NCBI GenBank assembly: GCA_902790495.1
Contig: CADASK010000004.1
Coordinates: 1 to 57,975 of the forward strand
Source of the DNA: an uncultured Eubacteriales bacterium
Lineage (GTDB): Bacteria > Bacillota > Clostridia > Christensenellales > Aristaeellaceae
Direction: 5' to 3'
DNA length: 57,975 nt
Part shown: in pieces, positions 1,250 to 53,521 of the stretch
How the letters are laid out: each line of letters starts with the position of its first letter
Position numbering within the stretch: position 1 is the first letter of the stretch
Program-made: the position numbers and the translations under genes
The notes under the pieces: generated by a model
The model's input: the letters and a program-made list of their open reading frames with translations, nothing else
What the model was told of the DNA's origin: nothing
The model's database searches: none

Positions 1250-1308
1250 GGTTCCGCGCCTGTGGGCGCAGGCAGGGGGCTTTGCGGTCGCCCCCTGCAC
1301 CCCTTCGC
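1250..1308 (+). repeat. Palindromic repeat, short form (copy 1)
   Basis: Contains the 5' GC hairpin region (somewhat decayed, CCGCGCC/GGCGCAG), then GCAGGGGGC, the loop TTTGCGGTC, GCCCCCTGC and the tail CCCCTTCGC. It lies between ychF and the ATP-grasp gene. Confidence 0.75.
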
Positions 1309-1346
1309 CTGCACTCCCTTCGCTTACAATACGTAAGGGTGCATGA

Positions 1347-2447
1347 TTAAACATTAAACCTGAACAGCGTCACATCGCCGTCCTTCATCACATAGTCCTT
1401 GCCCTCGGAACGGATCAGACCCTTCTCGCGGCAGGCGGCCATGGAGCCCATCTCCGCCAGGGTCTCGAAGGGCACGATCTCGGCCCGGATAAACCCGCGC
1501 TCGAAGTCGGTGTGAATCTTGCCCGCAGCCTGGGGCGCCTTGGTGCCCCGCTTGATCGTCCACGCGCGGCACTCGTCCTCGCCGGCGGTCAGGAAGGAGA
1601 TCAGCCCCAGCAGATGGTAGCAGGCGGTGATCATGCGCTCCATGCCGCTCTGGCCGATGCCCAGGTCGTTCAGGAACTCCGCCTTCTCCTCCGCGTCCAT
1701 CTGGCTGATTTCCTCCTCGATGGCGGCGGAGATCACCAGCATCTCGGCGCCCTCGCTGTCGGCGATGGCCTGCACCTTGTCCAGGTCCTTCACCTCGCTG
1801 ATGGGCTTGCCCAGATCCTCCTCGGCGATGTTCGCGGCATAGATCACGGGCTTGTCGGTCAGCAGGAAGAAGCTGCTCAGCAGGGGGCGGTCCTCCTCCT
1901 CGATCTCCAGCGTGCGGGCGGGCTTGGAGGCGGACAGGTGCTCGATCAGTCTGTCGCACAGCTCGCACTCGCGCAGGGCGTTCTTGTCGCCGCCGTTGCG
2001 GCTGCGCTGGGCCTTGTCGCGGCGGCGCTGCACGGTCTCCAGGTCGGCGAAGATCAGCTCGAGGTTGACCGTCTCGATGTCGCTGACCGGGTCGGTGGAG
2101 CAGTCCGCGCGAATGATGTTGTCGTCGTCAAAGCAGCGCACCACATGCACGATGGCATCCACCTCGCGGATGTGGGAGAGGAACTTGTTGCCCAAGCCCT
2201 CGCCGTGGCTCGCGCCCTTGACCAGGCCGGCGATGTCCACGAACTCCACAGTAGCCGGGGTCACCTTCTTGGGATGATACATATTCTCCAGCACGTCCAG
2301 CCGGTGGTCGGGCACCATCACCATGCCGGTGTTCGGCTCGATGGTGCAAAAGGGGAAATTCGCCGCCTGGGCGTTGCTGGTCTGGGTGATGGCGTTGAAC
2401 AGGGTGCTCTTGCCCACGTTGGGCAGGCCCACAACTCCGATCTGCAT
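1347..2447 (-). CDS. ychF: Redox-regulated ATPase/GTPase YchF
   Basis: 366 residues, close to the usual 363-367 of the family. The protein starts MQIGVVGLPNVGKST, so the P-loop is at residues 7-14, with the OBG-type switch segment (DIAGLVKGASHGEGLG) and a C-terminal TGS domain ending KDGDVTLFRFNV. YchF is an Obg-family protein that prefers ATP and binds ribosomes; it is linked to stress responses. The ATG at 2447 is chosen because AGAGGAGC lies upstream and homologues begin here; the open frame continues 34 codons further only into the promoter. It is transcribed from its own consensus promoter at 2487-2515. Confidence 0.97.
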   Translation of the reverse strand: MQIGVVGLPNVGKSTLFNAITQTSNAQAANFPFCTIEPNTGMVMVPDHRLDVLENMYHPKKVTPATVEFVDIAGLVKGASHGEGLGNKFLSHIREVDAIVHVVRCFDDDNIIRADCSTDPVSDIETVNLELIFADLETVQRRRDKAQRSRNGGDKNALRECELCDRLIEHLSASKPARTLEIEEEDRPLLSSFFLLTDKPVIYAANIAEEDLGKPISEVKDLDKVQAIADSEGAEMLVISAAIEEEISQMDAEEKAEFLNDLGIGQSGMERMITACYHLLGLISFLTAGEDECRAWTIKRGTKAPQAAGKIHTDFERGFIRAEIVPFETLAEMGSMAACREKGLIRSEGKDYVMKDGDVTLFRFNV

Positions 2448-2486
2448 GTCGGATAGCTCCTCTCGCAAGTTAGATTGGCATCGGAT

Positions 2487-2515
2487 ATTATACCCGCTGT
2501 TGGCGGGAAATGCAA
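2487..2515 (-). promoter_or_regulatory. Sigma-A promoter of ychF
   Basis: On the minus strand TTGCAT, a 17-base spacer and TATAAT, about 40 bases before the ychF start. Confidence 0.75.
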
Positions 2516-2577
2516 TGAAATAGAAGAAATCTTTGTATTTCAAACCCACGTAAACAAAACTGCTCTATCAGAGCTGC

Positions 2578-2703
2578 GGGCGAAGGTTTGCAAAGGGCTC
2601 GGAGCGCCCGGAAAATTCCATATTATGGAGTTTTCAGCGGAGAGCGGGCGGCAGCCCCGGACCGATCGCAAAGCCCCTGACCCGCGCCCGCAGGCGCGGA
2701 ACC
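2578..2703 (-). repeat. Palindromic repeat, long form, degenerate (copy 2)
   Basis: Read on the minus strand it has the GC hairpin, the TTTGCGATC loop, the CCGGGGCTGCCGCCCGC segment, an A/T-rich inner hairpin and the GCAAACCTTCGC tail. The two arms are mismatched here (CAGGGGCT against AGCCCTTTG), so this copy looks decayed or recombined. Confidence 0.8.
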
Positions 2704-2736
2704 CTTGCCGCCAAATCGTACAGAAGGCTTAATCCA

Positions 2737-3717
2737 TTATACTTTTCTTATTTGATACAGTTGCCGATAACTCTCCGGTGTCATCCCCGTGCGCTTGCGG
2801 AACAGCCGCGAAAAATAGCTCGCATCCTGATAGCCCACCTGCTCCGCAATCTCTGTCACCGGCAGACTGGTCTGCGCCAGGATGTGCCGCGAGCGCTCCA
2901 GCCGCACATGGATGATGAAATTGCCCACCGTCATGCCCGTGGCGCGCTTGAAGCAGTCGCTCAGGTACACCGCGGAGACATAGTGCCGCGCCGCGATCTC
3001 CGGGATCAGCAGCTTCTCGTGGTAGCGGGAGGCGATGTCCATCTGGGCCTTCGCCACCATCTCCTGATTCGCGTAGGCAAAGGCCAGCTCCCGCGAGAGC
3101 TCCGCCTCCAGCAGGAGGACGTTGACGTCGGTGTCCGTCTCGTGGAGCATGGAGCAGCCGATCCACGCCCCGCGCCAGGCGTCCTTGTTCAGATAGCCGC
3201 ACAGCAGCGCGCCCGCGGGCTTGGCCAGCGGCCTGACGCTGTGGGGCTGCTGATCCTGCGGCACCGGCCGCAGCGAGACGCAGACATAGCGCTCCGCCGC
3301 CTCGGTCTCCCGGGGACGCGCGGGCGCTTCCGCCAGCCGTTCGCGCAGCTTCTCCGCCGCGCGGCGCACCTCACCGATGGCCAGGGGCTTGAGCAGGTAG
3401 CAGCAGCTGCCCAGCTCCATCGCCTGCCGCGCGTACTCAAAGTCGCGGTAGGCGCTGACGATGCAGCCCGCCCGCACCAGGCCTTCCGCCATCAGCCGAC
3501 GAAGAAGGTCGATGCCGGACATCTCCGGCAGGCGGATGTCGGTGATGACAGCGTCCACAGGCCGGGCCGCCAGGGCGTCGTAGGCGTCCTCCGCCGTGCC
3601 GTACTCGCCAACGATCTCGAAGCCACTCTCCTCCCAGGAGATGATCTGCCGCAGGCCGATGAGAACCCAGGGTTCGTCGTCGACGAGGGCCAGGCGGTAC
3701 TTTTTCATTTCAGCCAT
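2737..3717 (-). CDS. Response regulator with AraC-type DNA-binding domain
   Basis: 326 residues. The N-terminal receiver domain begins MAEMKKYRLALVDDEPWVL, with the acidic pair DD, the phospho-acceptor Asp in AVITDIRLPEMSGID and the conserved Lys in YLLKPL. A linker of about 100 residues leads to a C-terminal pair of helix-turn-helix motifs (ITEIAEQVGYQDASYF-like, then RKRTGMTPESYRQ). This is the YesN-type architecture common in gut Clostridia, normally paired with a sensor kinase for carbohydrate sensing. No kinase gene is nearby. It starts 10 bases after the stop of the upstream ADP-ribosylglycohydrolase and has AAGGAA six bases before the ATG, so the two genes probably form an operon. Confidence 0.92.
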   Translation of the reverse strand: MAEMKKYRLALVDDEPWVLIGLRQIISWEESGFEIVGEYGTAEDAYDALAARPVDAVITDIRLPEMSGIDLLRRLMAEGLVRAGCIVSAYRDFEYARQAMELGSCCYLLKPLAIGEVRRAAEKLRERLAEAPARPRETEAAERYVCVSLRPVPQDQQPHSVRPLAKPAGALLCGYLNKDAWRGAWIGCSMLHETDTDVNVLLLEAELSRELAFAYANQEMVAKAQMDIASRYHEKLLIPEIAARHYVSAVYLSDCFKRATGMTVGNFIIHVRLERSRHILAQTSLPVTEIAEQVGYQDASYFSRLFRKRTGMTPESYRQLYQIRKV

Positions 3718-3727
3718 AGCAATTTCC

Positions 3728-4834
3728 TTATGATGGAGTGCATTCATTGAGACAGCCTGTGAAGTCGCCATATTTCCTCTGCCACGCAGGGTCGTCCGAG
3801 ATGGCGGCATCGCGCCACAGGTCGTCGGCCACCTCGAGGATCAGATCCCACAGTTCCAGGTGCTCCGTGTACTTGGCCGGAATGCCCGAGAGACCGACCT
3901 GCGCGCCGACGATGTTGCCGGCGATGGCGCCGGTGGAGTCGCTGTCCCCCTTGTGGTTGACGGCGGCGATCAGCGTCCCGTCGATGTCCCCGGCGTGCTT
4001 CACCGCGCAGTACACGGCGATGGCCAGGGCTTCCTCCCCGACCCAGCCCTCGCCCAGCCGGTGGATGGCCTGGAGATCCTGCCTGTCCTCGCCTGCCAGA
4101 TCCACCGCCCGCTTCATCAGACTGTCGAAGGTGCTCTTCTCCGCGCTGTCGGGGAAGATGGCGGCCACGGTCTCCAGCGCGCGGAGCACCGCGTCGGCGA
4201 TGGCCGCGCCGTCCTGACTCACCTCATGGACGATCAGGGCCAGGGCGGCTCCGGGCATCCAGCCCAGCGGATGGCCATGGGTGATGGCGGCGGCCTCCGC
4301 GCCGAGGCGGCCAATCTCCCGAATGTCCGTCCCGCGGTCGTTGAAGTACAGGCCGATGGGCGCCACCCGCATGACGCCGCCGCAGCCCTTGCTGTCGTTG
4401 ATCGTCTCCCGCACCGAGCCGAGTTTCCCGCTGCCCAGCGCCATGAGGCAGGTGTTGCCGGGGGCGCGGCGGCTGTAAAGCTCGGGGACGTTGCCCAGCC
4501 AGGCGGCCTTCGGATGCATGTCCGGCGTATAGCGGCCTCCCTGGGTTTTGAGCCAGTCCTGATAGCACAGGCCGATGGCGCGCGGGTCCAGGGTGCCGTC
4601 GCTCCGGATCAGGCCCTTTGCAGCGCCCAGGAGGAGGCCGTTGGCGGTGAAGAGCGTCATCTGGGTATCGTCAGAGATTCTGGCCAGGCCGCCGCTCAGG
4701 CGGTAGGCGGTGATGCCATCCGCACCGTATTCGCCGAAGATTTCCTCCTCGTCGAGGAATTCCACCGCGAAGCCGAGGGCGTCGCCGGCCGCGCCGCCGA
4801 TGAGGCATCCGCGGAATTTGTCCTGACTGCGCAT
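3728..4834 (-). CDS. ADP-ribosylglycohydrolase family protein (A)
   Basis: 368 residues of the DraG/ARH fold. Visible family marks are GGAAGDALG near residues 13-21, the first metal motif SDDT at 54-57 and the second, GDSDSTGA, around 296-303 with Asp297 and Asp299. These residues bind the two Mg ions in characterised members, which cleave N- or O-glycosidic bonds to ADP-ribose. Many bacterial relatives in sugar loci probably act on small glycosides instead. AAAGGAG precedes the ATG. It is followed at 10 bases by the response regulator gene. It is distinct from the three homologues at 21672-25998. Confidence 0.9.
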   Translation of the reverse strand: MRSQDKFRGCLIGGAAGDALGFAVEFLDEEEIFGEYGADGITAYRLSGGLARISDDTQMTLFTANGLLLGAAKGLIRSDGTLDPRAIGLCYQDWLKTQGGRYTPDMHPKAAWLGNVPELYSRRAPGNTCLMALGSGKLGSVRETINDSKGCGGVMRVAPIGLYFNDRGTDIREIGRLGAEAAAITHGHPLGWMPGAALALIVHEVSQDGAAIADAVLRALETVAAIFPDSAEKSTFDSLMKRAVDLAGEDRQDLQAIHRLGEGWVGEEALAIAVYCAVKHAGDIDGTLIAAVNHKGDSDSTGAIAGNIVGAQVGLSGIPAKYTEHLELWDLILEVADDLWRDAAISDDPAWQRKYGDFTGCLNECTPS

Positions 4835-4878
4835 GGTTGATGCTCCTTTCGCATTCGATTACTGCTTTCTGCTGCAGA

Positions 4879-5003
4879 GGTTCCGCGCCTGCGGGCGCGG
4901 GCAAAGGGCTTTGCGGTCGGTCCGGGGCTGCCCGCCCGCTCTCCGCTGAAAACTCCATAACATGGAGTTTTCCGGGCGCTCCGAGCCCTTTGCAAACCTT
5001 CGC
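4879..5003 (+). repeat. Palindromic repeat, long form (copy 3)
   Basis: Complete long form: CCGCGCC/GGCGCGG hairpin, GCAAAGGGCT pairing with AGCCCTTTGC, and the inner hairpin AACTCCAT-AAC-ATGGAGTT. The inner hairpin carries T-A/A-T where other copies have G-C/C-G, a compensating change. It abuts the collapsed epimerase gene. Confidence 0.9.
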
Positions 5004-5300
5004 TCGCTTTGCGGTTGTAGCGCAGGCCGGCCTGCTTCAGCCCCGGCAGCGGGATGAACAGCGGCCGCGGGATCCGAACCGCGAGGTGCTTCTCGGCCCA
5101 GGCCCGCACCGCGTCCACCAGCTTGCCGATGGCGGCGGAGAGGGCCGCGTCGCCCCGAGCCGATGGACGGCCTCGTCGTCGTCCGACGCGCGCACCAGCG
5201 CATACACCGTGGTGTGTTCCTGCCGCGCCAGCCTGGAAGCCAGTTCGGTGCCCAGGAAGCCGGTGGCGCCGGTCAACAAAACCACGTCACGCATCTGCAT
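5004..5300 (-). pseudogene. Collapsed NAD-dependent epimerase / SDR gene
   Basis: The first 48 or so codons (MQMRDVVLLTGATGFLGTEL) are an intact Rossmann-fold start with the GxxGxxG motif. After HRLG the frame breaks at a run of four G; adding one G continues as GDAALSAAIGKLVDAVRAWA and then IPRPLFIPLPGLKQAGLRYN, which looks like the far C-terminal end of the same family. About 200 or more central residues, including the catalytic Tyr-x3-Lys, are missing. The frame then reads into the palindromic repeat without a native stop. It overlaps the 3' end of the upstream HAD gene by 14 bases, consistent with a former operon. Confidence 0.7.
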
Positions 5301-6135
5301 CCTCCGTATCGCGCGTCAGGCCCAGCTGGTCGAAGGCCCGGGCGAGGCCGTCCTGCTCCACCGCGGGACAAACCATGGTGCTGACTGCCTTCAGGCGGGG
5401 GCTGCCGTTGTCCATGCAGACGGAGGTGCCCACGGTCTGCATCATCTCCAGGTCGTTCATGCTGTCCCCGAAGCCGATGGTGTCGCTCAGATCCATCCCG
5501 AAGTATTCCGCCACGCGCTTCACGCCGCGGCCCTTGTCGAAGCGGCGGTTGATCATCTCGCCGTTCAGGAAGCCCCGGGCGTCGGCGTCCTGCACCACGA
5601 AGTTGAAATCTGCCCCCAGGGCATCCATGGCGGGCCGTAGCTGCTCCATGGTTTTGCACATGAACACGATCTTGTAGATATCGCTGCCGTCGTACTCGCC
5701 CATAGGGCGGATGTTGAGCCGCTCGGTGATGGCCCTTCGCCAGCGTGCCAGCTCGCTGTTGCCCTCGCCCGCCTCGGCCATGAAGGCACTCAGATCCTCG
5801 TCGCCCCAGGTGGCGTCCCGGGACTCGATGGTGCGGAGCACGCGGTTCTCCCCCAGCAGCCTCATGCCGGTCTCGAACTGCTCCCTGCTCATCGGGCAGT
5901 CGAAGAGCACCCGGTCGCCCACGAACACGTAGCCGCCGGCGCAGGCCACCGCACCCTCGAAGCCCAGCGCCAGCACAGGGGCCAGCATGCCGGGGTTCCG
6001 GCCCGTGCACAGGAAGATGCGGTGGCCGTTCGCCTGGGCCTTGCGGACGGCGGCCATGGCGCTCTCCGGCGGGTTGTTGCTGCCCGCGGGGGTCAGGGTT
6101 CCGTCGATATCCAGGAAGATCAGCTTGCGTTGCAT
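5287..6135 (-). CDS. Cof-type HAD-superfamily phosphatase
   Basis: 282 residues. HAD motif I is FLDIDGTLT (nucleophile Asp9 and acid-base Asp11), motif II is in FLCTGRN, and the C-terminal motif IV is GFGDSMNDLEMM. A C2-type cap lies between. Members of the Cof/YbjI group dephosphorylate sugar phosphates, cofactors or flavin precursors in the cytoplasm; the substrate cannot be deduced. AAGGAGG lies 8 bases upstream of the ATG. The stop overlaps the start of the ruined epimerase gene downstream. Confidence 0.92.
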   Translation of the reverse strand: MQRKLIFLDIDGTLTPAGSNNPPESAMAAVRKAQANGHRIFLCTGRNPGMLAPVLALGFEGAVACAGGYVFVGDRVLFDCPMSREQFETGMRLLGENRVLRTIESRDATWGDEDLSAFMAEAGEGNSELARWRRAITERLNIRPMGEYDGSDIYKIVFMCKTMEQLRPAMDALGADFNFVVQDADARGFLNGEMINRRFDKGRGVKRVAEYFGMDLSDTIGFGDSMNDLEMMQTVGTSVCMDNGSPRLKAVSTMVCPAVEQDGLARAFDQLGLTRDTEDADA

Positions 6136-6216
6136 GGGGACAGCCTCCTTGACGCCCGCCGCTGCCGGCCGGCGTTCCTTTGGGAAGACGCATACGGCGT
6201 CCTCCCGGTTATGGAT

Positions 6217-6245
6217 ACCTTACCAAATCAGCGGCCCCGCGTCAA
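6217..6245 (-). promoter_or_regulatory. Weak candidate promoter for the HAD gene
   Basis: TTGACG, 17 bases, TAAGGT on the minus strand. The -35 is good and the -10 is poor, so this is tentative. Confidence 0.35.
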
Positions 6246-6322
6246 GCGGACTTGCAAATTGAGAGAAGGCAGGTCCGAACTTGTATATTTGTGTCATTTG
6301 GGTTACATTTGTCCAATTCGTC

Positions 6323-6351
6323 TTGACTTATAACCATATATCGTATAAAAT
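6323..6351 (+). promoter_or_regulatory. Sigma-A promoter of the first ABC transporter
   Basis: TTGACT, 17 bases, TAAAAT, about 40 bases upstream of the binding-protein start. An overlapping TATAAA with 15-base spacing is also possible. Confidence 0.65.
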
Positions 6352-6391
6352 GATGTCATCAATCTTCCACGAGAAGAGAGGAGAATCGCCC

Positions 6392-7603
6392 ATGAAAAAG
6401 TTTCTTGCCCTGGTCATGGCAGCCATAATGCTGCTTTCTCTGGTGTCCTTCGCCCACGCCGAGGACGTCGAGCTCGAGTTCCTGTACCACAAGTCTGAGA
6501 CCGACGCCATCAACGCGATGCAGAAAGTCATCGACCAGTTCAACGCCGAGAATCCCGGCATCAAGGTCAACTTCGTGCAGATCCCCGACGCGGCCACCGT
6601 GCTGCAGACCCGCGCCACCCAGAACGACCTGCCCGACATGTTCGGCTGCACCACCTCCACCACCTACGAGCTGATGTTCGAGAGCGGCCTGATCATGGAT
6701 CTGACCGGCCAGCCCTTCCTGGAGAACATCGCCCCCTCCACCCTGGCGCTGAGCGGCTATCATGGCAAGATCTACCGTATGCCCTACAGCCTGAGCTGCT
6801 ACGGCCTCTACGTGCGCACCGACATCTTCGAGCAGCAGGGCATCGAGCTGCCCACCACCTGGGAAGAGCTCATGGCGGCCTGCGAGAAGCTGCAGGCGGC
6901 CGGCATCTACGGCTTCGGCCTGCCGGACAAGGACATGGTCTATCAGCGCATGGAGCGCATGATGTCCATGCTCGCCGACAATGACGACGAGTTCAAGGCC
7001 ATCGCCGCGGGCGAGCTGGATCCCCATGAGTCCAAGGTGCTCAAGGGCTATGCCGAGGCCTCCCTGGACATCGCCAAGTACACCAACCCCGAGTCCAAGG
7101 GCGCGGGCTATGACGAGAGCTATCAGATGTTCCTGAAGGACGGCGCGGCCATGACCATCAACGGCCAGTGGTCCCTGGGCACCCTGCTGGGCTTCAACCC
7201 CGACCTGCCCGTGGCCATGATTCCGCTGCCCAACCCCACCGGTGAGCAGAGCAACGTCATCGTCTCCATCGACACCAGCTTCTGCATCTCCGCCAACACC
7301 AAGCACCCCGAGGAGTGCCTGAAGTTCCTGGAGTTCCTGGCCAAGACCGAGACCGCCCAGACCTACACCGACATCGAGGGCAGCCCCAACGTCATCAAGG
7401 GCGTGAACTACAGCGTGAAGCAGCTGGAGAAGATCAACGAGGCCATGAGCGAGGGCCACACCGCCCTGAGCTTGAACGCCATCTGGCCCTCCGGCCTGCG
7501 CAAGGCCCTGGGTGACGTCGCGACCAACCTGATCCTGGATCAGGATCTGGAAGCCTTCTACGCGGACGCGCAGATGACCATTGAGGACTATTACAACAAC
7601 TGA
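6392..7603 (+). CDS. Carbohydrate ABC transporter substrate-binding protein
   Basis: 403 residues with an N-terminal signal peptide (MKKFLALVMAAIMLLSLVSF then AHA-ED cleavage). The mature part is a family-1 extracellular solute-binding protein, with the usual VIDQFNAENPGIKVNF start and periplasmic-type two-lobe fold. It should bind an oligosaccharide or sugar and deliver it to the permeases at 7846 and 8755. No lipobox cysteine is visible at the cleavage site, unusual for a monoderm. GAGAGGAG lies upstream of the ATG. A hairpin terminator and a long repeat copy separate it from the permease genes, which may let the binding protein be made in excess. No ATPase gene is present; a shared MsmX-type ATPase elsewhere is likely. 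Confidence 0.93.
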   Translation: MKKFLALVMAAIMLLSLVSFAHAEDVELEFLYHKSETDAINAMQKVIDQFNAENPGIKVNFVQIPDAATVLQTRATQNDLPDMFGCTTSTTYELMFESGLIMDLTGQPFLENIAPSTLALSGYHGKIYRMPYSLSCYGLYVRTDIFEQQGIELPTTWEELMAACEKLQAAGIYGFGLPDKDMVYQRMERMMSMLADNDDEFKAIAAGELDPHESKVLKGYAEASLDIAKYTNPESKGAGYDESYQMFLKDGAAMTINGQWSLGTLLGFNPDLPVAMIPLPNPTGEQSNVIVSIDTSFCISANTKHPEECLKFLEFLAKTETAQTYTDIEGSPNVIKGVNYSVKQLEKINEAMSEGHTALSLNAIWPSGLRKALGDVATNLILDQDLEAFYADAQMTIEDYYNN

Positions 7604-7623
7604 TCAGGGAATCAAGTTTTCCC

Positions 7624-7660
7624 GGCGGGACTGCTGCCGTCAGTAGCCCCGCCCTTTTTT
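7624..7660 (+). terminator. Terminator between binding-protein and permease genes
   Basis: GGCGGG pairs with CCCGCC around a partly paired loop (ACT with AGT), followed by six T. It is likely a partial terminator, because the permeases show no obvious promoter of their own. Confidence 0.6.
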
Positions 7661-7672
7661 ACAGTCACGCAG

Positions 7673-7796
7673 GGTTCCGCGCCTGCGGGCGCGGGCAGGG
7701 GGCTTTGCGATCGATCCGGGGCTGCCGCCCGCTCTTCGCTGAAAACGCCATAACATGGCGTTTTCCGGGCGTTCCGAGCCCCCTGCACCCCTTCGC
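7673..7796 (+). repeat. Palindromic repeat, long form (copy 4)
   Basis: GC hairpin, GCAGGGGGCT pairing with the distant AGCCCCCTGC, and the inner hairpin AAAACGCCAT-AAC-ATGGCGTTTT. Compared with copies 3 and 5 the outer stem is changed on both sides together. It lies inside the transporter operon. Confidence 0.9.
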
Positions 7797-7845
7797 GCCG
7801 CACCTTTAGGATTCATACTTTATTCTTAGAGGAGAGTGAGTCCGC

Positions 7846-8754
7846 ATGACCGCCGTTCCGCGCAAGCCCAAGCCCCACGCGCTGATGCGCAGGGAGCAGT
7901 GGGTCACGTACCTGATCATGACCGCGCCTGGTCTGGTCCTGTACTGCGTGTTCCTGATCCTGCCCATCCTCATGGGTATCTACTATTCCCTGACGGACTG
8001 GACGGGCATCGGCAACACCTTCAATTTCATCGGCTTTGAGAACTATGTGAAGGTCTTCACCAACGACAAGCGCTTCGGCAACGCGCTGATCTTCAACCTG
8101 CGCTACACCATCTACCTGGTGCTGGGCATTGTGGTCATCGGCTTCGCGCTGGCCCTGCTGCTGAACCGGAAGATGAAGGGCCGTTCCTTCTTCCGCACCC
8201 TCTACTTCATGCCGGCCGTGCTGTCCATGATCACCATCGGCCTGGTATTCAAGCAGATCTACTTCTACGTGCTGCCCTCCATCGGCAAGAGCATCGGCAG
8301 CGCCGTGTTCTCGGAGAACATCATCGCCAACCGGCAGCTCGCCATCTACGGCATCCTCTTCGTCCACCTCTGGCAGGGCGTCGCGCTGCCCACGCTGCTG
8401 TTCCTGGCGGGCCTGCAGACCATCCCCGCCGACCTGTACGAAGCCGCCTCCATCGACGGCGCCACCGCCTGGCACCAGTTCAAGTCCATCACCGTGCCCT
8501 ACATCCTGCCCACCCTCTCGGTGGTGCTGGTGCTGGCCGTGAAGCAGGGCCTGAACGTCTTCGACTACATCAACGCCATGACCAAGGGCGGCCCCGGCGG
8601 CGCCACCACCTCCATCGCCATGCTGATCTGGCAGAACGCCTGGGAGCGCAACCGTTTCAGCTACTCCATCGCCCAGGCTGTTGTGACCGGTCTGCTCATC
8701 GCGCTGGTCTCCTTCATTCAGATCAAATTTACAAATGACAGGAAGGTGGAGTAA
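7846..8754 (+). CDS. Carbohydrate ABC transporter permease, MalF/UgpA type
   Basis: 302 residues with six predicted membrane spans. The cytoplasmic coupling loop EAASIDGATAWHQF, followed by the usual PYILPTL, is the EAA motif that contacts the ATPase. AGAGGAG stands upstream of the ATG at 7846. It is followed without a gap by the second permease. Together with the binding protein at 6392 it forms a CUT1-type sugar importer. Confidence 0.94.
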   Translation: MTAVPRKPKPHALMRREQWVTYLIMTAPGLVLYCVFLILPILMGIYYSLTDWTGIGNTFNFIGFENYVKVFTNDKRFGNALIFNLRYTIYLVLGIVVIGFALALLLNRKMKGRSFFRTLYFMPAVLSMITIGLVFKQIYFYVLPSIGKSIGSAVFSENIIANRQLAIYGILFVHLWQGVALPTLLFLAGLQTIPADLYEAASIDGATAWHQFKSITVPYILPTLSVVLVLAVKQGLNVFDYINAMTKGGPGGATTSIAMLIWQNAWERNRFSYSIAQAVVTGLLIALVSFIQIKFTNDRKVE

Positions 8755-9594: not shown

Positions 9595-9620
9595 CGCGAT
9601 CCCTTTTCCCACGGATTCCG

Positions 9621-9649
9621 GCAGGAGGCTATTGTGCCTCCTGCTTTTT
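9621..9649 (+). terminator. Rho-independent terminator of the first transporter operon
   Basis: GCAGGAGGC pairs with GCCTCCTGC around TATTGT, then five T. Confidence 0.9.
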
Positions 9650-9719
9650 CGTGCCAAACAAAAACTCCGGCCAGCTAAAGACCGAAGTATTTTGTTTCTT
9701 TGGGGAATTGCTGTAAGAG

Positions 9720-9842
9720 ATTCCGCGCCTGCGGGCGCGGGCAAAGGGCTTTGCGATCGGTCCGGGGCTACCGCCCGCTCTACGCTGAAAACGCCATAAC
9801 ATGGCGTTTTCCGGGCGCTCCGAGCCCTTTGCAAACCTTCGC
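9720..9842 (+). repeat. Palindromic repeat, long form (copy 5)
   Basis: Complete long form with GCAAAGGGCT/AGCCCTTTGC and the inner hairpin AAAACGCCAT/ATGGCGTTTT. It lies between the converging 3' ends of the permease operon and the STAS gene. Confidence 0.9.
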
Positions 9843-9859
9843 CCGCAATCCTATACGCA

Positions 9860-10156: not shown

Positions 10157-10200
10157 CTTGGGACGCTCCTTTCAATTCGTGGCCTTCGTCAGACTGGGAA

Positions 10201-10796: not shown

Positions 10797-10815
10797 CTTT
10801 CTGTCTCCTGTCTTC

Positions 10816-15043: not shown

Positions 15044-15062
15044 GATTGCGAGATAGCAGCAG

Positions 15063-15087
15063 GGTTCCGCGCCCGCAGGCGCGGAAC
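15063..15087 (+). repeat. Palindromic repeat, 5' hairpin only (copy 6)
   Basis: GTTCCGCGCC-CGCA-GGCGCGGAAC, a perfect 10-bp stem matching the first hairpin of the repeat family. The rest of the element is absent. Confidence 0.65.
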
Positions 15088-15110
15088 TCCCCATGATAAG
15101 CCAATGAAAA

Positions 15111-43814: not shown

Positions 43815-43826
43815 CGTATCTCATTT

Positions 43827-45360: not shown

Positions 45361-45388
45361 AGGTCTGCCTCCTTCGCTGATTTTGTGC

Positions 45389-45511
45389 GTTCCGCGCCCA
45401 AGGGCGCGGGCAGGGGGCTTTGCGATCGGTCCGGGGCTGCCGCCCGCTCTCCGCTGAGAACGCCATAACATGGCGTTTTCCGGGCGCTCCGAGCCCCCTG
45501 CACCCCTTCGC
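45389..45511 (+). repeat. Palindromic repeat, long form (copy 7)
   Basis: GCAGGGGGCT/AGCCCCCTGC outer stem and AACGCCAT-AAC-ATGGCGTT inner hairpin. The 5' hairpin loop differs (CCGCGCCCAAGGGCGCGG). It lies between prkC and rsgA. Confidence 0.9.
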
Positions 45512-45550
45512 CCGCCGCCTTTAATAGCAGAAGAAAAGGGGTTTTATCTT

Positions 45551-45594
45551 GGCTCTCCCTCTGGGAGAGCTGTCACCGCAGGTGACTGAGAGGG
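45551..45594 (+). repeat. Tandem hairpin element next to the palindromic repeat
   Basis: GCTCTCCC-TCT-GGGAGAGC followed by GTCACC-GCA-GGTGAC and TGAGAGGGC. A similar pattern is common between genes in other gut Clostridia (recalled, not searched). It directly abuts repeat copy 8. Confidence 0.55.
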
Positions 45595-45649
45595 CCGCGC
45601 CTGCGGGCGCGGGGCAGGGGCTTTGCGATCGCCCCTGACAACCCTTCGC
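45594..45649 (+). repeat. Palindromic repeat, short form (copy 8)
   Basis: CCGCGCC/GGCGCGG hairpin, CAGGGGC-TTTGCGATC-GCCCCTG and the tail ACCCTTCGC. Between prkC and rsgA. Confidence 0.85.
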
Positions 45650-45682
45650 AGCACCCTTTTTCAGCAGGTTGCGCATCAAGTT

Positions 45683-47614: not shown

Positions 47615-48572
47615 GGCCGCCCTCCTGATCCAGCAGCAGCACAAGGCTGACGTTGTCCCGTCCGCCGGCGTCCAGCGCGGCCTCCAGCAGCCTCTGCGCC
47701 TTGTTTTCCAGGGAAGCGCTCTCGTCCGTGAGGATGGCCCGCATCTCGTCGTCGCTGACCATGCCGTGCAGGCCGTCGGAGCAGATCAGCCACAGATCGC
47801 CCTTCTCCCGCGGGAAGTGCAGCATGTCGATGTCCACGCCCTGGTCGGTGCCCACGGCGCGGGTGATCACGTTACGCATCGGATGCACATGGGCCTGCTC
47901 CCGGGTCAGCGCGCCGGCGCGCACCATCTCCATCACCAGGGAGTGGTCGTCGGTCATCTGCTGCAGCTCGCCGCCGCGCAGCCGGTAGCAGCGGCTGTCC
48001 CCCACGTGGGCGATCAGCGCCTCCACATCGCCAAGCCAGAGCACGGTCAGGGTGGTGCCCATGCCGCGCAGGTGCTCGTCCTCCTCGGATTTGAGGAAGA
48101 CCCGGCGGTTGACCGCCTCCACGCCCGTGCGCAGGGCAGCGGCGTCCGGCTCCTTGTCCCGCAGCAGGGCGATCAGGCCGTCCCGCACGATGGCGGAGGC
48201 CGTCTCGCCGCCCAGGTGTCCGCCCATGCCGTCCGCAACGCCCGCCAGCCGTCCCGCGAGGATCACGGCGTCCTGGTTGTTCGCGCGCACCTTGCCCACG
48301 TCCGTGCGGCTGGCCGTGAGGAAGGGAGCCTCCGGATCATCCGCAGGCTGGGCTTCCCGGGCTTGATCCGCCTCCGCCTTCGCGGTCTCGGGCGTCTCCG
48401 CGGCCGTATCGCAGGGCGCAGCGGGTGCGTCCTGGGCAGGCGGGATCTCCGTCGCCGAAGCGGCGGACGGGTCCGCCGGGGTTTGGGCCTCGGCGGTCTC
48501 CTCCGGCTGGCTGAAGTCCTTCATGCGCTCTGAGCTTTCGCGGGAAAAATGAAAGCGATGCTTCTTCATGGT
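47607..48572 (-). CDS. prpC: PP2C-type protein phosphatase with acidic N-terminal extension
   Basis: 321 residues. The PP2C domain begins near residue 85 (SRTDVGKVRANNQDAVI) with metal motifs GVADGMGGHLGGE, HVGDSRCYRL, CSDGLHGMVSD and GRDNVSLVLL. It reverses phosphorylation by the adjacent PASTA kinase. Ahead of it lies an 80-residue stretch rich in Ala, Glu, Pro and Thr, which the usual PrpC of about 245-255 residues lacks. The ATG at 48572 follows GGAGACACACC. Codon use in the extension matches the rest, so I take it as translated. Confidence 0.93.
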   Translation of the reverse strand, partial: TMKKHRFHFSRESSERMKDFSQPEETAEAQTPADPSAASATEIPPAQDAPAAPCDTAAETPETAKAEADQAREAQPADDPEAPFLTASRTDVGKVRANNQDAVILAGRLAGVADGMGGHLGGETASAIVRDGLIALLRDKEPDAAALRTGVEAVNRRVFLKSEEDEHLRGMGTTLTVLWLGDVEALIAHVGDSRCYRLRGGELQQMTDDHSLVMEMVRAGALTREQAHVHPMRNVITRAVGTDQGVDIDMLHFPREKGDLWLICSDGLHGMVSDDEMRAILTDESASLENKAQRLLEAALDAGGRDNVSLVLLLDQEGGHA

Positions 48573-48665
48573 GTGTCTCCGATCGTTGGTGGGAAATAGC
48601 GCTTGCATAAGCGGCAAACTTCTTGTTTTGATGCTTCTATAATCGTCCGCATCAAAAGGATGCTG

Positions 48666-48724
48666 GCGAAGGGGTGCAGGGGGCGATCGCAAAGCCCCCT
48701 GCCCGCGCCCGCAGGCGCGGAACC
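48666..48724 (-). repeat. Palindromic repeat, short form (copy 9)
   Basis: On the minus strand: CCGCGCC-TGCG-GGCGCGG, GCAGGGGGC-TTTGCGATC-GCCCCCTGC, CCCCTTCGC. It faces copy 10, 17 bases away. Confidence 0.9.
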
Positions 48725-48741
48725 CTGCTTTATGCAGAAGA

Positions 48742-48799
48742 TTTCGCCGCCTGCGGCGGCGACCAAAGGGCTTTGCGATCACCCTTTGGAAACCTTCGC
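48742..48799 (+). repeat. Palindromic repeat, short form (copy 10)
   Basis: The first hairpin is TCGCCGCC-TGC-GGCGGCGA, changed on both sides compared with CCGCGCC/GGCGCGG. The second is CCAAAGGG(C)/CCCTTTGG around TTTGCGATC, then AAACCTTCGC. Between rlmN and prpC. Confidence 0.85.
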
Positions 48800-48823
48800 A
48801 GCTCCGATTATCTCATGATAACG

Positions 48824-49888
48824 TCAGGTATCCATCTGCTGCTGGATGGTTCTGCGGCGAAGCTGGCCGCAGGCGCCCTCGATGTCGTCGCCCATCTCGC
48901 GGCGGCGCGTCGCGGAGATGTGGCGGGCCTCCAGCACGCGCAGGAAGCGGCGCACGGTCTCCTCGCTCACGCCCTGCAGGCCGCGCTCCGGCACGCTGTT
49001 GAGCGGGATCAGGTTCACATGGCACTGCATGCCGCGCAGCACGTGGGCCAGCTCCTCGGCGTCCCGCTCCGAGCTGTTGAAGCCCTCGGTCATGGCGTAC
49101 TCAAAGATGACCCGGCGTCCAGTCTTCCCGATGTAATACCGGCAGGCGTCCAGCACGTCCTCCATGGGGTAGGTGTTGGCGATGGGCATCAGCTGGCGGC
49201 GGATGCGGTCGTTGGGCGCGTGCAGGGAGACGCAGAGCGTCACCGGCAGGCCCTCCTCCGCGAAGCGCCGCATCCTGGGCACCAGGCCGCAGGTGGAGAG
49301 GCTGACCCCCCGCAGGCTGATCGGCGTGCCCTCCTCCTCGCGCAGCAGGCGCAGGAAGCGCACCACCTCGTCATAGTTGTCCAGCGGCTCGCCGCTGCCC
49401 ATGAGCACCACGTTGTGCACGCGCTTTTTCTCGTCGGGATCGCCGCCCTCCTCCTGGGACAGGTAGCGGTTGGCGGCGATGATCTCCCCCAGCATCTCCC
49501 CGGCGGTCAGGTTCCGCACGCAGCCCTCGAGGGTGCTGGCGCAGAAGGCGCAGCCCATCCGGCAGCCCACCTGGGTGGAGATGCACAGGGTGTCCCCGTG
49601 GTGGTAGCGCATCAGCACGCCCTCCACACAGTTGCCGTCCCGCAGACCGAAGAGGAACTTGACCGTGTCGTCAATGGCGGAGCGGCGCTGCTGCAGGATG
49701 CGCACAGGCTGCACCACCGCCTCAGCGCTCAGCTTTTCGCGCAGGGCCTTGGGGAGGTTCGTCATCTCCTCCCAATCCGCGCCGCGGTGCATCCAGCCGA
49801 AGATCTGCCCCGCGCGGAAGCCGGGCAGCCCCTGCTCCCCGCACCAGGCCTTCACTTCAGCCAGCGTCATGCCCGTCAGCTCTGTCAT
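48824..49888 (-). CDS. rlmN: Dual-specificity RNA methyltransferase RlmN
   Basis: 354 residues. The radical-SAM motif is QVGCRMGCAFCAS (CxxxCxxC); later GSGEPLDNYD, LSTCGLVPRM and ISLHAPND-like VSLHAPNDRIR segments, and the C-terminal catalytic Cys region. It methylates C2 of A2503 in 23S rRNA and A37 in some tRNAs. The ATG follows GGAGGAAGCGCGT and overlaps the rsmB stop (ATGA). Confidence 0.97.
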   Translation of the reverse strand: MTELTGMTLAEVKAWCGEQGLPGFRAGQIFGWMHRGADWEEMTNLPKALREKLSAEAVVQPVRILQQRRSAIDDTVKFLFGLRDGNCVEGVLMRYHHGDTLCISTQVGCRMGCAFCASTLEGCVRNLTAGEMLGEIIAANRYLSQEEGGDPDEKKRVHNVVLMGSGEPLDNYDEVVRFLRLLREEEGTPISLRGVSLSTCGLVPRMRRFAEEGLPVTLCVSLHAPNDRIRRQLMPIANTYPMEDVLDACRYYIGKTGRRVIFEYAMTEGFNSSERDAEELAHVLRGMQCHVNLIPLNSVPERGLQGVSEETVRRFLRVLEARHISATRRREMGDDIEGACGQLRRRTIQQQMDT

Positions 49889-51825
49889 ACGCGCTTCCTC
49901 CGCATCCGGCAGATATAGAAGCCGCAGCCGTCCCTGTGGGGCAGCAGCTGCAGGCCGAGGCCATCCTGTCCGCGCCATCTCTCCGGGAAGCTCTCGGGCA
50001 TCTCCGCGGCCTCAAACTCGGGGTGAGCGGCCAGGAAGGCCGCCGCCTGGCGCTCGTTCTCGTCCTTGAGCACCGAGCAGGTGGAATACACCAGGGTGCC
50101 GCCGGGCTTCACGTAGGCGCTCACGGTATCCAGCAGGCGCGCCTGGAGCTGCGCCAGCTCGGCAGCGCTCTCCGGGGTCACGCGGAATTTCACGTCGGGC
50201 TTCTCGGCCATATCGCCGGTGCCGCTGCACGGCGCGTCCAGCAGCACGACGTCCATCGTGCCGGTCAGGTCCTCGCGCAGCGTCAGGGCGTCGCGAGTCA
50301 TGGGGCGCACGGATTCCAGCCGCAGGCGCTTCACCTGGGCCTCGATCAGCTTCGTGCGGTGCTCGTGCAGCTCCCAGGCCTGCACGCGGCCCGTGTCGCC
50401 CATCAGCTCGGCCATCAGGCAGCTCTTGCCGCCGGGGGCCGCGCAGCAGTCCAGCACGCGCTGGCCGCGCTTGGGGTCGGCCGCCAGGCAGGCGAGGATG
50501 GAGCCCTCGCTCTGGATGGAGAACAGGCCCTGCAGGAAGTCGGCATCCTGTCCGATGTTCAGCATGCCGCGCAGGAGCCAGGTGTGGGGCAGCTCGCCCC
50601 GCTGGTGCTCCCAGACCTTCTTCTCCAGCAGCTGCTCGAAGGCCTCATCGGTCACGCGCAGGCTGTTGGAACGGATCAGCATCGGCTTGTCGCGGCCCGT
50701 GCAGGCGGCGAGCTTGGCCGCCTCATCCCAGCCCCAGTCCTTCACGAGGATCTCCAGCAGGCCCTCCGGCACGCTCTCCTTCACGGAGAGGGCCTTCAGC
50801 GGCTCGGTCTGGGCGTCCGGGAAGGTCAGCTCGTCCTTCTGACGGATCAGGTTGCGGAGGACGCCGTTGCACACACCCGCCAGCCCGTCCAGGCCGATGA
50901 GGCGGCACAGCTCCACCGAGGTGTCGGTGGCCGCCATCTCCGGGATGCGATCCTCCAACAGCAGCTGGCACGCGCCCAGGCGCAGGATGTTGACCAGCTT
51001 GATGTCCGTGTCCGGCTTCGCCATCACCTGGGCCAGGGCGTGGTCGAGGTAGATGCGGTTGTCCAGCGTGTCGTAGACCAGGCGCGCCGCCAGGCGGCGG
51101 TCGGCAGCGGACAGGGTGCACTTCTGCAGGGCGTCGTCCAGGGCCAGGGAGGCGTAAGCGCCGTTCTCGGTGACGCGGCGAATCACATCCAGGGCCAGCT
51201 TGCGAGCCGGAATGCCGTCGGTGTTGCCGGGGCGCGGCGCGGGCGCGGGCCTGCCGTAGGGGCCTCTGCGCGGAGGATTCCCACCGGGACGGCGGTCAAA
51301 ACCACTTCCAGGGCTGCGGTTCCCACGGAAAGGCGCGGAATGCCCCTCGGATGCGGGGCGGCTGCCACGATCGTGGCGATCATCCCCACGGAAGGGTGCG
51401 TGTCCCCCACGGAAGGGGCGACCGTTCCCACCGGCGGGTCTGCCGAAGCCGCCGGACGGGCGGTCAGTCCCACGCGGGGGCTGATCCGGGCGGGTTTGCG
51501 CCTGCTCCTTGTCCCCGAATGGGGCGTGTTCCCCACGTTCCTGGGTGAAGAGCCTGCGATCCGGATAGCTGTTCCCACCGTGGGCAGAATTCTCACCGCG
51601 ATAGGGCGGTTTGCTCCCACCTTGGCGGGGATAGCTGCCCTTCGGACGCCCGCCATGGGCGCCGGCGGACGGGCGAGGCCCACGGTCGTGTCCATGATTC
51701 CCACTTGTACTGCCATATCGTCCGTTTTCAGGACGTCTTTCCCTACTTTCGTTCCGATTATTGCCGTGATATCCCTGGTGATCCCCACTCTGCTTGTCGT
51801 GATCCGGGCGATGTTCCTCTGCCAT
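49885..51825 (-). CDS. rsmB: 16S rRNA m5C967 methyltransferase with RG-rich N-terminal extension
   Basis: 646 residues against about 440-450 for the family. From about residue 205 it is a normal RsmB: a NusB-like domain (KLALDVIRRVTENGAYASLA) and a SAM-dependent methyltransferase domain with CCAAPGGKSCLMAELM, DAPCSGTGDM and the second catalytic Cys in VYSTCSVLKDENE. The first 200 residues are low-complexity, rich in Gly, Arg, Asp, Pro and His with repeated FRG and RPxGG units, and should be disordered and RNA-binding. AAAGGAG stands before the ATG at 51825. It is followed by rlmN with ATGA overlap. Confidence 0.95.
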   Translation of the reverse strand: MAEEHRPDHDKQSGDHQGYHGNNRNESRERRPENGRYGSTSGNHGHDRGPRPSAGAHGGRPKGSYPRQGGSKPPYRGENSAHGGNSYPDRRLFTQERGEHAPFGDKEQAQTRPDQPPRGTDRPSGGFGRPAGGNGRPFRGGHAPFRGDDRHDRGSRPASEGHSAPFRGNRSPGSGFDRRPGGNPPRRGPYGRPAPAPRPGNTDGIPARKLALDVIRRVTENGAYASLALDDALQKCTLSAADRRLAARLVYDTLDNRIYLDHALAQVMAKPDTDIKLVNILRLGACQLLLEDRIPEMAATDTSVELCRLIGLDGLAGVCNGVLRNLIRQKDELTFPDAQTEPLKALSVKESVPEGLLEILVKDWGWDEAAKLAACTGRDKPMLIRSNSLRVTDEAFEQLLEKKVWEHQRGELPHTWLLRGMLNIGQDADFLQGLFSIQSEGSILACLAADPKRGQRVLDCCAAPGGKSCLMAELMGDTGRVQAWELHEHRTKLIEAQVKRLRLESVRPMTRDALTLREDLTGTMDVVLLDAPCSGTGDMAEKPDVKFRVTPESAAELAQLQARLLDTVSAYVKPGGTLVYSTCSVLKDENERQAAAFLAAHPEFEAAEMPESFPERWRGQDGLGLQLLPHRDGCGFYICRMRRKRV

Positions 51826-51880
51826 ACTAATCTCCTTTGCTGGGTATTCTCTCTCATTCTTCTGTCTTTACACCTCAAGG

Positions 51881-51939
51881 GGTTCCGCGCCTGCGGGCGC
51901 GGCCAAAGGGCTTTCCGATCGCCCTTTGGAAACCTTCGG
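51881..51939 (+). repeat. Palindromic repeat, short form (copy 11)
   Basis: CCGCGCC-TGCG-GGCGCGG, then CCAAAGGGC-TTTCCGATC-GCCCTTTGG and AAACCTTCGG. Between fmt and rsmB. Confidence 0.9.
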
Positions 51940-51987
51940 GTGCCATATTAAAGCTCTTCCCTTGAGAAATGAGAGATACTGGTCGGT

Positions 51988-52908
51988 TCAGCCCAGATGG
52001 GTTCCAACGGGAATCGGGTGACCGCGCAGGTAGTCGGTGGCCGCCATGGCCTTGCCGCCGGGGGCCTGCAGCTGAGTCACCGCCACGGCGCCTTGGCCGC
52101 AGGCGATCACCAGGCCCTGCTTGCCGGAGGCGATCACCTCGCCCGGCTCGCCCTCGCCCTCGGCGGGGAGCGCCCGGAGCAGCTTCAGCCTGCCCTCGCC
52201 CCAGGGCACGGAGCAGCCCGGCCAGGGGTTCAGACCCAGGATCTGGTTGGCGATGTCCTGCCCGCACTGCGACCAGTCGATCTCCCCCATCTCCTTCTTC
52301 AGCATGGGGTCGTAGGTCATGCGGCTCTCATCCTGGGGCACCGGCGTCAGGGTGCCGGCGTCCATGGCGGCGAGGGTCTCCAGCAGCAGCTCCGCGCCGA
52401 CGCGGCTGAGCACCTCGGTCAGCTCGCCGCAGGTCATCAGCGGATCGCGCTTGAGGCTCTTTGCCAGCAGCATCGCGCCGGTGTCGATGCCCTTGTCGGT
52501 CAGCATCGTCGTGACGCCAACCTCCTCGTCCCCCTGCAGGATGGCCCAGGCGATGGGCGCGCTGCCGCGGTGCCGGGGCAGCAGGGAGGCGTGCACGTTC
52601 ACCGTGCCCAGGCGCGGGATATCCAGCACCTCCTGGCTCAGAATCTGCCCGAAGGCCGCGGTCACGCACAGATCCGGTGCCAGGGCGCGCAGATCCTCCA
52701 CGCCGTCGCGGCGGATGCGCTCGGGCTGGAACACCGGGATGCCGTGGCGCTGCGCCAGCTGCTTGACCGGCGAGGCCTGCACCTTGCCGCCGCGTCCCTT
52801 GGGCCGGTCGGGCTGGGTGAACACGCCGATCACCTCATGGGGCGAATCGATCAGCGCCTGCAGAGAGGGCACGGCAAAATCCGGCGTGCCCATGAATACG
52901 ATTCTCAC
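51988..52908 (-). CDS. fmt: Methionyl-tRNA formyltransferase
   Basis: 306 residues. RIVFMGTPDFAVPSLQALI starts the Rossmann domain; the formyl-transfer site NVHASLLPRHRGSAPI is intact, with Asp in TDKGIDTGAML. A C-terminal OB-like domain follows. It formylates initiator Met-tRNA. The start is GTG at 52908, which overlaps the def stop as GTGA. Confidence 0.97.
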   Translation of the reverse strand: MRIVFMGTPDFAVPSLQALIDSPHEVIGVFTQPDRPKGRGGKVQASPVKQLAQRHGIPVFQPERIRRDGVEDLRALAPDLCVTAAFGQILSQEVLDIPRLGTVNVHASLLPRHRGSAPIAWAILQGDEEVGVTTMLTDKGIDTGAMLLAKSLKRDPLMTCGELTEVLSRVGAELLLETLAAMDAGTLTPVPQDESRMTYDPMLKKEMGEIDWSQCGQDIANQILGLNPWPGCSVPWGEGRLKLLRALPAEGEGEPGEVIASGKQGLVIACGQGAVAVTQLQAPGGKAMAATDYLRGHPIPVGTHLG

Positions 52909-53405
52909 TGTTCGTCATCCTCCGGCACATGGCCCTCGATCTCTTCCTCGCTCAGCTCGCGGTCCATCTCGTCGATGTAGAGCACGCCGTCCAGGTGATC
53001 CAGCTCGTGGCAGATGGCGCGGGCCAGCAGGTCCTCACCCTCCAGCTCGAAGAAGCGGCCGTGGCGGTCCTGGGCGCGCACCTTCACGCGCTTGGGCCGG
53101 GTCACGATGCCCTGACGGCCCGGCAGGGACAGGCAGCCCTCGCGGCCGCACTGGGTCTCCTCCGAGCGCTCGATGATCTCCGGGTTGATCAGCTCCCGCA
53201 CGCCGGCCTCGTCGCCCAGGTCGATGATGACCACGCGGCGGAGGATGCCCACCTGGGGCGCGGCCAGGCCGACGCCCTCGGCCTTGTGGAGGGTGTCCGC
53301 CATGTCTTTGAGGAGGATGTGCAGGCGCAGGTTGAACTGCTCCTGCTTTTTGCAGACCTTGCGGAGGGAAGGATCCCCGAGTTCCAGAATTTTGCGAATG
53401 GCCAT
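52905..53405 (-). CDS. def: Peptide deformylase
   Basis: 166 residues. All three motifs are present: GVGLAAPQVG, EGCLSLPG (Cys ligand) and ICHELDHLDG (two His ligands and catalytic Glu). It removes the formyl group from new proteins, completing the cycle begun by fmt, with which it overlaps. ATG 53405 has AGGAG about ten bases upstream; a TTG three codons earlier is an alternative. Confidence 0.97.
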   Translation of the reverse strand: MAIRKILELGDPSLRKVCKKQEQFNLRLHILLKDMADTLHKAEGVGLAAPQVGILRRVVIIDLGDEAGVRELINPEIIERSEETQCGREGCLSLPGRQGIVTRPKRVKVRAQDRHGRFFELEGEDLLARAICHELDHLDGVLYIDEMDRELSEEEIEGHVPEDDEQ

Positions 53406-53462
53406 GGTTCTCAATCTCCTATTGCTTGCAGTGGTTACTGTTTGTCATCTATTCTTAACAGA

Positions 53463-53521
53463 GGTTCCGCGCCTGCGGGCGCGGGTCAGGGGCTTTGCGA
53501 TCGCCCCTGACAACCCTTCGC
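53463..53521 (+). repeat. Palindromic repeat, short form (copy 12)
   Basis: CCGCGCC-TGCG-GGCGCGG, TCAGGGGC-TTTGCGATC-GCCCCTGA, then CAACCCTTCGC. Between priA and def. Confidence 0.9.

Follow-up and report, generated by a model that had tools for sequence, protein, structure and literature searches.

A dispersed intergenic repeat family with a putative triplex–pseudoknot core in an uncultured Eubacteriales bacterium and related genomes

The repeat and its core

A dispersed palindromic repeat lies between the genes of the window, a 57,975-nt stretch of contig CADASK010000004.1 from an uncultured Eubacteriales bacterium. The genome of this bacterium, labelled G000, is 2.47 Mb long in a 94.5% complete assembly; other genomes and loci carry G and L labels. 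The original prediction, made from the letters of the window alone, had listed twelve places for the repeat, and it is present at all 12: there are six short cores of 61–62 nt, five long forms of 126–127 nt, and one first hairpin on its own, so that eleven places hold the full core (Table 1). The positions given for the copies stand, with the correction that two of them lie on the minus strand. Within the window, the core word TTTGCGATC is found eight times, compared with 0.49 expected from dinucleotide shuffles, and 369 times in the whole genome, compared with 0 for the reversed word. A 14-letter core word, GGGCTTTGCGATCG, occurs 328 times in the window genome.

Read on its plus strand, the core consists of a purine tract followed by TT, a first hairpin (P1), a second stem (P2) with the loop TTT-xCGx-TC and its 3′ arm, a linker, and a tail, TTCGx. 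The P1 loop is mostly TGCG, and the P2 stem has 7–10 bp. The letters TTT..CG.TC of the loop and TTCG of the tail are nearly invariant, and the conserved central core is about 55–60 nt. In the long form, a module with an inner hairpin (P3) is inserted after the P2 loop. The inner hairpin changes on both sides, as had been predicted, and there are seven fully paired variants, including ACGCCAT/ATGGCGT, ACTCCAT/ATGGAGT, ACAGTCC/GGACTGT, and ACTGTCC/GGACAGT; it is imperfect in 6 of 56 matches. A different insertion is seen in genome G002, where a small hairpin module sits inside the P2 5′ arm (e.g., at L334 16720 and L337 10182); this module is identical in 15 of the 16 matches found. A second dispersed repeat, of the CTCCCCTATGAGGGGAGCTGTCA...TGACTGAGGGGTTG type, is present in the same intergenic regions (window about 45560–45595; L146, L127, and L415), and a variant of it adjoins the core copy at 45589.

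Table 1. Copies of the repeat in the window
Coordinates	Strand	Feature	RNA fold z
1248..1308	+	Short core: P1 hairpin, P2 stem (GCAGGGGGC class), linker, and tail	
2580..2705	-	Long form, P3 module inserted after P2 loop	
4877..5003	+	Long form	
7671..7796	+	Long form	-3.8 (for 7671-7815)
9717..9842	+	Long form	
about 15061..15094	undefined	P1 hairpin only, extended palindrome, without core	
45386..45511	+	Long form	
45589..45649	+	Short core whose arms differ in class, taken to be a chimera; adjoins another repeat family	
48666..48726	-	Short core, head-to-head with copy at 48738	
48738..48799	+	Short core, covarying P1 (TCGCCGCC/GGCGGCGA)	
51879..51939	+	Short core, CCGA/TCGG loop–tail class; partial inverted repeat in flanks	
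53461..53521	+	Short core, GTCAGGGGC class	-3.6 (plus), -4.7 (minus)

Pairing of the stems, loop, tail, and linker

Alignment A1 contains 32 distinct rows of the 9-bp P2 class, with 500 shuffles as controls. In this alignment, 97.1% of the cells are paired, compared with 85.8% in the shuffles, and the covariation score is 0.349, compared with 0.155; for both measures, 0 of the 500 shuffles are as high. Changes on both sides are seen in 5 of 9 P2 pairs and in 1 of 4 loop–tail pairs, and pairing drops to 39–51% in slid controls. Two weaker measures, the pairs with double changes and the further pair types, were equalled by 27 and 34 of the 500 shuffles. These data bear out the compensated changes that had been proposed for the second stem. 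In the first hairpin, both-side changes are few (three pairs have 1, 2, and 3 such cells in an alignment of 43 rows), and the paired changes claimed for it are real, including those of the copy at 48738.

An unbroken P2 stem, with wobbles allowed, is found in 104 of 115 matches with a spacing of 10–16. The counts for the second stem and its classes exclude 34 odd-spaced matches, 30 of which are spaced as inner hairpins, and still include two evenly spaced inner-hairpin matches. With these two counted, departures from P2 pairing are symmetric, with 13 G.T and 14 A.C. The structural reading in the original prediction is thus upheld for the compensated stems but not for a conserved RNA as such, since the P2 departures do not have the strand asymmetry of RNA.

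The loop and tail had been described as nearly constant; instead, both vary, and they do so together. A search that left loop and tail free, in fetched stretches of G000, G001, G002, G005, G006, G009, G010, and G011, gave 209 matches, of which 105 have the combination CCGA/TCGG, 73 have GCGA/TCGC, 6 have CCGG/TCGG, 5 have GCGG/TCGC, and 20 are singletons. The mismatched combinations GCGA/TCGG and CCGA/TCGC were seen in 0 of these 209 matches from eight genomes; there is one GCGA/TCGG case in earlier, looser match lists. Ten of the matches were set aside as not belonging to the family, leaving 199 members, in which the first loop–tail pair is C-G in 112, G-C in 83, and unpaired in 4. The P2 classes CCAAAGGGC, CCAGAGGGC, and GCCGGGGGC are each found with both loop–tail types, always matched. 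Thus, either the loop and tail have changed together on a fixed stem more than once, or the stem and linker have done so on a fixed loop–tail pair. Three further genera (G455; G484, G548, and G508; G538) follow the same rule, which is not independent support because the pairing was used in the search. Two G561 loci fetched on model matches have no row with the core descriptor. We suggest from these combinations that the tail pairs with the P2 loop, forming a pseudoknot, and changes with the stem and loop.

The linker is coupled to the P2 stem both in length and in sequence. Loop–tail pairing is found with a linker equal to the stem length minus 3 in 190 of the 199 copies (53/56 for 7 bp, 36/37 for 8 bp, 95/98 for 9 bp, 6/7 for 10 bp, and 0/1 for 11 bp), whereas a fixed linker of 6 would account for only 96 of the 199. 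Level by level, the linker mirrors the stem: G is answered by C (551/561), a leading A by A (230/235), an A after G by T (31/31), and the last G by T (195/199). On the minus strand, these rules, apart from the one for the last G, become G.G-C, T.A-T, and A.A-T, which constitute a purine-motif triplex by the rules given in the available text of PMC4666352. With the last level excluded, the triplex rule is obeyed at 813 of 855 levels, compared with a mean of 81.6% and a maximum of 84.2% in 500 shuffles. A pyrimidine-motif third strand was also considered and was dropped, because the leading A's do not fit it and fit the purine motif on the opposite strand instead. Judging from these rules, the linker probably behaves as the third strand of the P2 stem in an intrastrand triplex.

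Genomic position, spread, and mobile elements

Within 435 kb of the window genome, in stretches chosen for holding copies, 110 copies were placed relative to genes with a simple gene caller. There are 84 copies in tandem gaps, 13 in convergent gaps, 5 in divergent gaps, 5 inside called genes, and 3 at edges; all gaps of at least 20 nt, for comparison, comprise 191 tandem, 35 convergent, and 34 divergent (260 in total). Copies in the tandem gaps of this genome lie a median of 40 nt from the upstream stop, and the core is oriented opposite to the genes in 55 copies and along them in 29 (n = 84). In a smaller set from the same genome, the orientation is 32:18 (p = 0.065), and four other genomes are unbiased. 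Copies lie farther from the upstream stop elsewhere, with medians of 111 nt in G002, 257 nt in G005, and 248 nt in G010. The plus strand of the core is on the C-rich strand in 78 of the 110 copies. If, as is generally the case, the G-rich strand is the leading strand, this would place the minus strand of the core on the lagging-strand template. The corresponding split in other genomes (36:28 in G002, 16:14 in G010, 13:12 in G005, and 7:4 in G001) has no clear bias. The upstream purine tract showed no association by eye with the class of the tail in the 115 matches with a spacing of 10–16.

In each genome, about 150 candidates were scored with a covariance model built on the core. The model matched 151 times in G000, 150 in G010, 150 in G002, 94 in G005, 73 in G001, and 28 in G006; the six remaining genomes of the genus have 8, 6, 3, 2, 1, and 0 matches. 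Under a stricter filter, 29 of the 150 genomes sampled from the family have matches, and these represent 12 of 50 genera. The exact pattern, in 391 genomes of the class, was found 226 times in G000 and once each in three others, where the matches look coding. A loose pattern was too common for a contig scan, and among the matches listed most loci are chance. Relatives at single loci include a core-only form in L094 (CALMXN010000182.1) and a long form in L086 (CAMNLM010000066.1). Arrays of the core are seen in L116 at 1720–1850, with units of about 25–35 nt (CADAPI010000204.1, an uncultured Ruminococcus record), and in L162 of G005, on the minus strand near 2135–2260, with a unit of about 62 nt. 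Plasmid sequences gave no match to the repeat. A phage search gave one partial match, of 46 bp at 87%, between the start of the long form and an unannotated human faecal phage record (MT839442.1, 3089–3134). Rfam, which the original prediction had proposed to search, gave 0 window matches at the gathering score, and relaxed settings gave sub-gathering matches only. No account of the repeat family was found in open-access papers; searches of these papers with the core letters gave matches to a 10-letter word only and none for three longer words.

In G455, from a sister genus, the core is located inside elements of 215–225 bp with inverted-repeat ends like CAGACTGTTGACAAAG. Across 20 of these copies, the core is 97.8% identical on average, compared with 74.1% and 69.0% for the two arms. 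The outer boundaries adjoin a hairpin (at least 6 effective pairs, within 4 nt of the boundary) in 25 of 32 cases, compared with 63 of 1,140 windows taken at random from the same loci; many of these random windows are probably coding. Of 21 G455 copies considered for flanking duplications, 8 do not have one or both ends readable and 1 has too little flank, leaving 12. In 5 of these 12, the whole hairpin is directly repeated at the element ends, over 46, 26, 28, 30, and 17 bp, with one of the five offset by one base. By eye, some of the flanking hairpins are followed by T-runs, as intrinsic terminators are. An outer 5′ end with the core TACYRATCTCAG is matched at 22 places in 375 kb of G002, and roughly 18 of the 22 also match, by eye, the inverted 3′ end, with the repeat core between. 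Several cores in G010 form tail-to-tail pairs with a linker. The suggestion of a mobile hairpin element, made in the original prediction, gains support from the inverted-repeat elements of the sister genus.

Transposase genes with the PF13751 domain were found in G455, G478, G001, and G003 among 20 genomes searched, and not in the other 16, including G002, G005, and G010. Two of the proteins were checked, those of G478 and G003, and both are IS1182 by NCBIfam NF033551. The ends of the insertion sequence (IS) in G478, GGACCTGTTGACAAAG, have 12 letters in common with the G455 element, the shared stretch being CTGTTGACAAAG. IS1272, of the IS1182 family, uses stem-loops as targets and replaces them without duplication, according to the available text of PMC5678879. 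Filing the family among miniature inverted-repeat transposable elements (MITEs) of IS1182 would, on these matches, be supported for G455 only, and incompletely even there. Two other candidates were rejected: a DDE_3/IS630 mover, of which G002 has one partial gene without a matching end, and a reverse transcriptase partner, which was found only in G003 and G009.

Interpretation and comparison with known systems

We consider it reasonably likely that the repeat is a lineage-wide, hairpin-targeting, MITE-like family with a constrained triplex–pseudoknot core, which apparently no longer moves in the window genome. The copies would be cores and remnants of non-autonomous elements with inverted-repeat ends that insert at hairpins, probably intrinsic terminators, and the likely mover in one sister genus would be an IS1182-family DDE transposase acting in trans. 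The core would fold when one DNA strand is exposed, and the folded single-stranded DNA may be what is selected, with a protein recognizing it during movement or repair; alternatively, the core may be kept up by copies converting one another. In the window genome, the arms would have decayed, with mostly the core retained, and movement would have ceased. This reading draws on the paired changes, on the coupling of linker length to stem length, on the mirroring of the stem by the linker, and on the inverted-repeat ends, together with the ends in G455 that abut hairpins and appear to duplicate them. We put forward more tentatively, as a possibility short of an even chance, that the selected form is specifically a pseudoknotted intrastrand triplex of single-stranded DNA, present in hundreds of copies per genome and with model matches in 12 of 50 sampled genera of the family. 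This form would be the signal by which a transposon is recognized and copied, and the transposon would insert at terminator hairpins, duplicating each target hairpin in full.

A number of observations weigh against a hairpin-targeting element with a triplex–pseudoknot core. Two features break the triplex rule, namely T.C-G at the first level (24 cells) and the final level of the linker. The shuffles used with that rule ignore relatedness, and the common stem classes number only about a dozen. The loop–tail departures (15 G.T and 3 A.C) favor the plus strand, whereas the triplex rule favors the minus strand. Pairing between the flanks was no better than with shuffled partners in 107 copies of G000 and its relatives and in 96 of the 110 G000 copies, and it was only slightly above shuffled partners in G002; an outer stem joining the flanks was rejected, since true pairs are no better than shuffled ones. 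Seven of the 12 testable G455 copies have no flanking duplication. Recognizable inverted-repeat ends are seen in only a few G000 copies, and their sequence differs from that of the G455 ends. A terminator-like hairpin is present within 80 nt on either side in only 9 of 63 copies in G000 and 6 of 64 in G002; random single 80-nt windows have one in 3 of 300 and 2 of 300 cases, respectively. PF13751 was not found in G000, and neither were Y1, TnpB, or reverse-transcriptase domains, in an assembly of the completeness given above. An end-like GGACCTGTTGACAAAA beside one G455 IS1182-type gene, which has an internal stop, shares 11 letters rather than 12, and other G455 pieces have no clear matching end. 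Because part of the shared end stretch looks like a promoter -35 box, the match counts for less than its length would imply. No transposase was matched to the G002-type element with ends TACYRATCTCAG. Finally, a uniform core could also be maintained by gene conversion, with no selection acting on the fold.

The fold might instead be selected as RNA, in a transcribed 3′-end stabilizer, processing signal, or regulator. This would suit the compensated stems, the preponderance of G.T among the loop–tail departures, the location of copies after stop codons in the window genome, and RNA fold z-scores of -2.7 to -4.7 in five sequences. However, the plus strand is opposite to the genes in 55 of the 84 tandem-gap copies of that genome, the departures in the second stem are symmetric, and no U-run directly follows the core. 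Purine-motif triplexes are poor in RNA, and the linker fits such a triplex. We regard a structured RNA as unlikely, although not far-fetched.

Recombination among copies bears on a further explanation, in which the core is ordinary MITE filler, its uniformity and paired changes come from gene conversion alone, and the fold is unselected. In at least four copies, the arms belong to two different classes; these copies are read as chimeras joined at the shared loop, as conversion would give. The copy at 1248 has an orthologue at the same site in G005 with the same unusual P1 loop and another P2 and tail class; between the orthologous copies of window 1248 and L152, the stem and the tail have both changed. 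From the chimeric arms and this class switch, cores seem to have been exchanged between sites or replaced in place. In L131 (8743–11373) and L149, from two species, near-identity extends over two neighboring copies and the intervening gap, with surrounding DNA about 84% identical, which hints at a recent exchange. The much greater uniformity of the core than of the arms would also follow from conversion. However, conversion spreads classes and does not create ones that obey the stem, loop–tail, length, and mirror rules at once, and the unbroken stem in 104 of 115 matches does not suit conversion alone. We consider an unselected fold improbable.

Repetitive extragenic palindromes (REPs), arranged in bacterial interspersed mosaic elements (BIMEs) and moved by a REP-associated tyrosine transposase (RAYT) of the Y1 type, are a rather remote alternative. 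Like the present copies, REPs in the available text of PMC3733652 are intergenic palindromes in hundreds of copies, often in inverted pairs, and the copies in the window genome lie just after stops as REPs do. However, Y1_Tnp was not found in the copy-rich genomes of the genus (G000, G001, G002, G005, and G010); the only genomes that yielded it were G006, G007, and G009, with 28, 0, and 3 model matches, respectively. Furthermore, there is no GTAG/CGTC tag beside the hairpin in alignment A2 (43 copies), where the flank is mostly purines and then TT. Pseudoknots like those of Type III antitoxins or TnpB guide RNAs (omegaRNAs), which are also small and which the arrays in L116 and L162 and the ToxN genes in 2 of 12 genomes of the genus might recall, are very improbable, because the sequence before both ToxN genes is unrelated to the core by eye, a repeat finder reported nothing in L372, the TnpB C-terminal domain (PF07282) has no match in any of the 12 genomes, and the genes beside the two arrays look housekeeping, judged from translations alone. 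The ToxN-type type III toxin genes, in L372 and L373, are preceded by repeats that are by eye unrelated to the core.

If the family is a hairpin-targeting element with a triplex–pseudoknot core, it would have a bearing on two questions. Whether triple-stranded DNA is important in living cells is hard to test, and here the third strand could be tested in the same way as a base pair, through changes that follow those of the stem in hundreds of copies from several species. The family would also be a clear case of a mobile element with end hairpins and hairpin-length duplications, which is relevant to site choice by IS1182-type transposases and to the fate of transcription termination after insertion.

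How does this family compare with known systems? H-type RNA pseudoknots with a long third loop have the same order of stem, loop, stem, linker, and loop partner; unlike them, the present core has a linker that copies the stem letter by letter, and its copies are dispersed by the hundreds. REPs and BIMEs resemble the family in position, copy number, and inverted pairs, and differ from it in that the family has no tag tetranucleotide, no RAYT in the copy-rich genomes, and both loop–tail pairing and a linker rule. The likeness to the IS1182 family lies in the stretch CTGTTGACAAAG, which the ends of the G455 element share with IS1182 elements of a related genome, and, with IS1272 as described in the available text of PMC5678879, in stem-loops of varying sequence at the ends. 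IS1272 is reported to replace its target stem-loop, with no duplication, whereas the whole hairpin is directly repeated in 5 of 12 G455 copies, and a triplex–pseudoknot core is not mentioned for IS1272 in that part of the source. TM-ECO, in the available text of PMC4666352, likewise consists of G/C-rich intergenic repeats with the potential for a purine-motif intrastrand triplex and many copies per genome, and it is reported there without association to transposons, phages, or plasmids. It differs in sequence, in stem order, and in its third strand, which is shorter in the present family. To the features of TM-ECO in that text, the core described here adds a loop–tail pseudoknot, a P1 hairpin, and signs of mobility.

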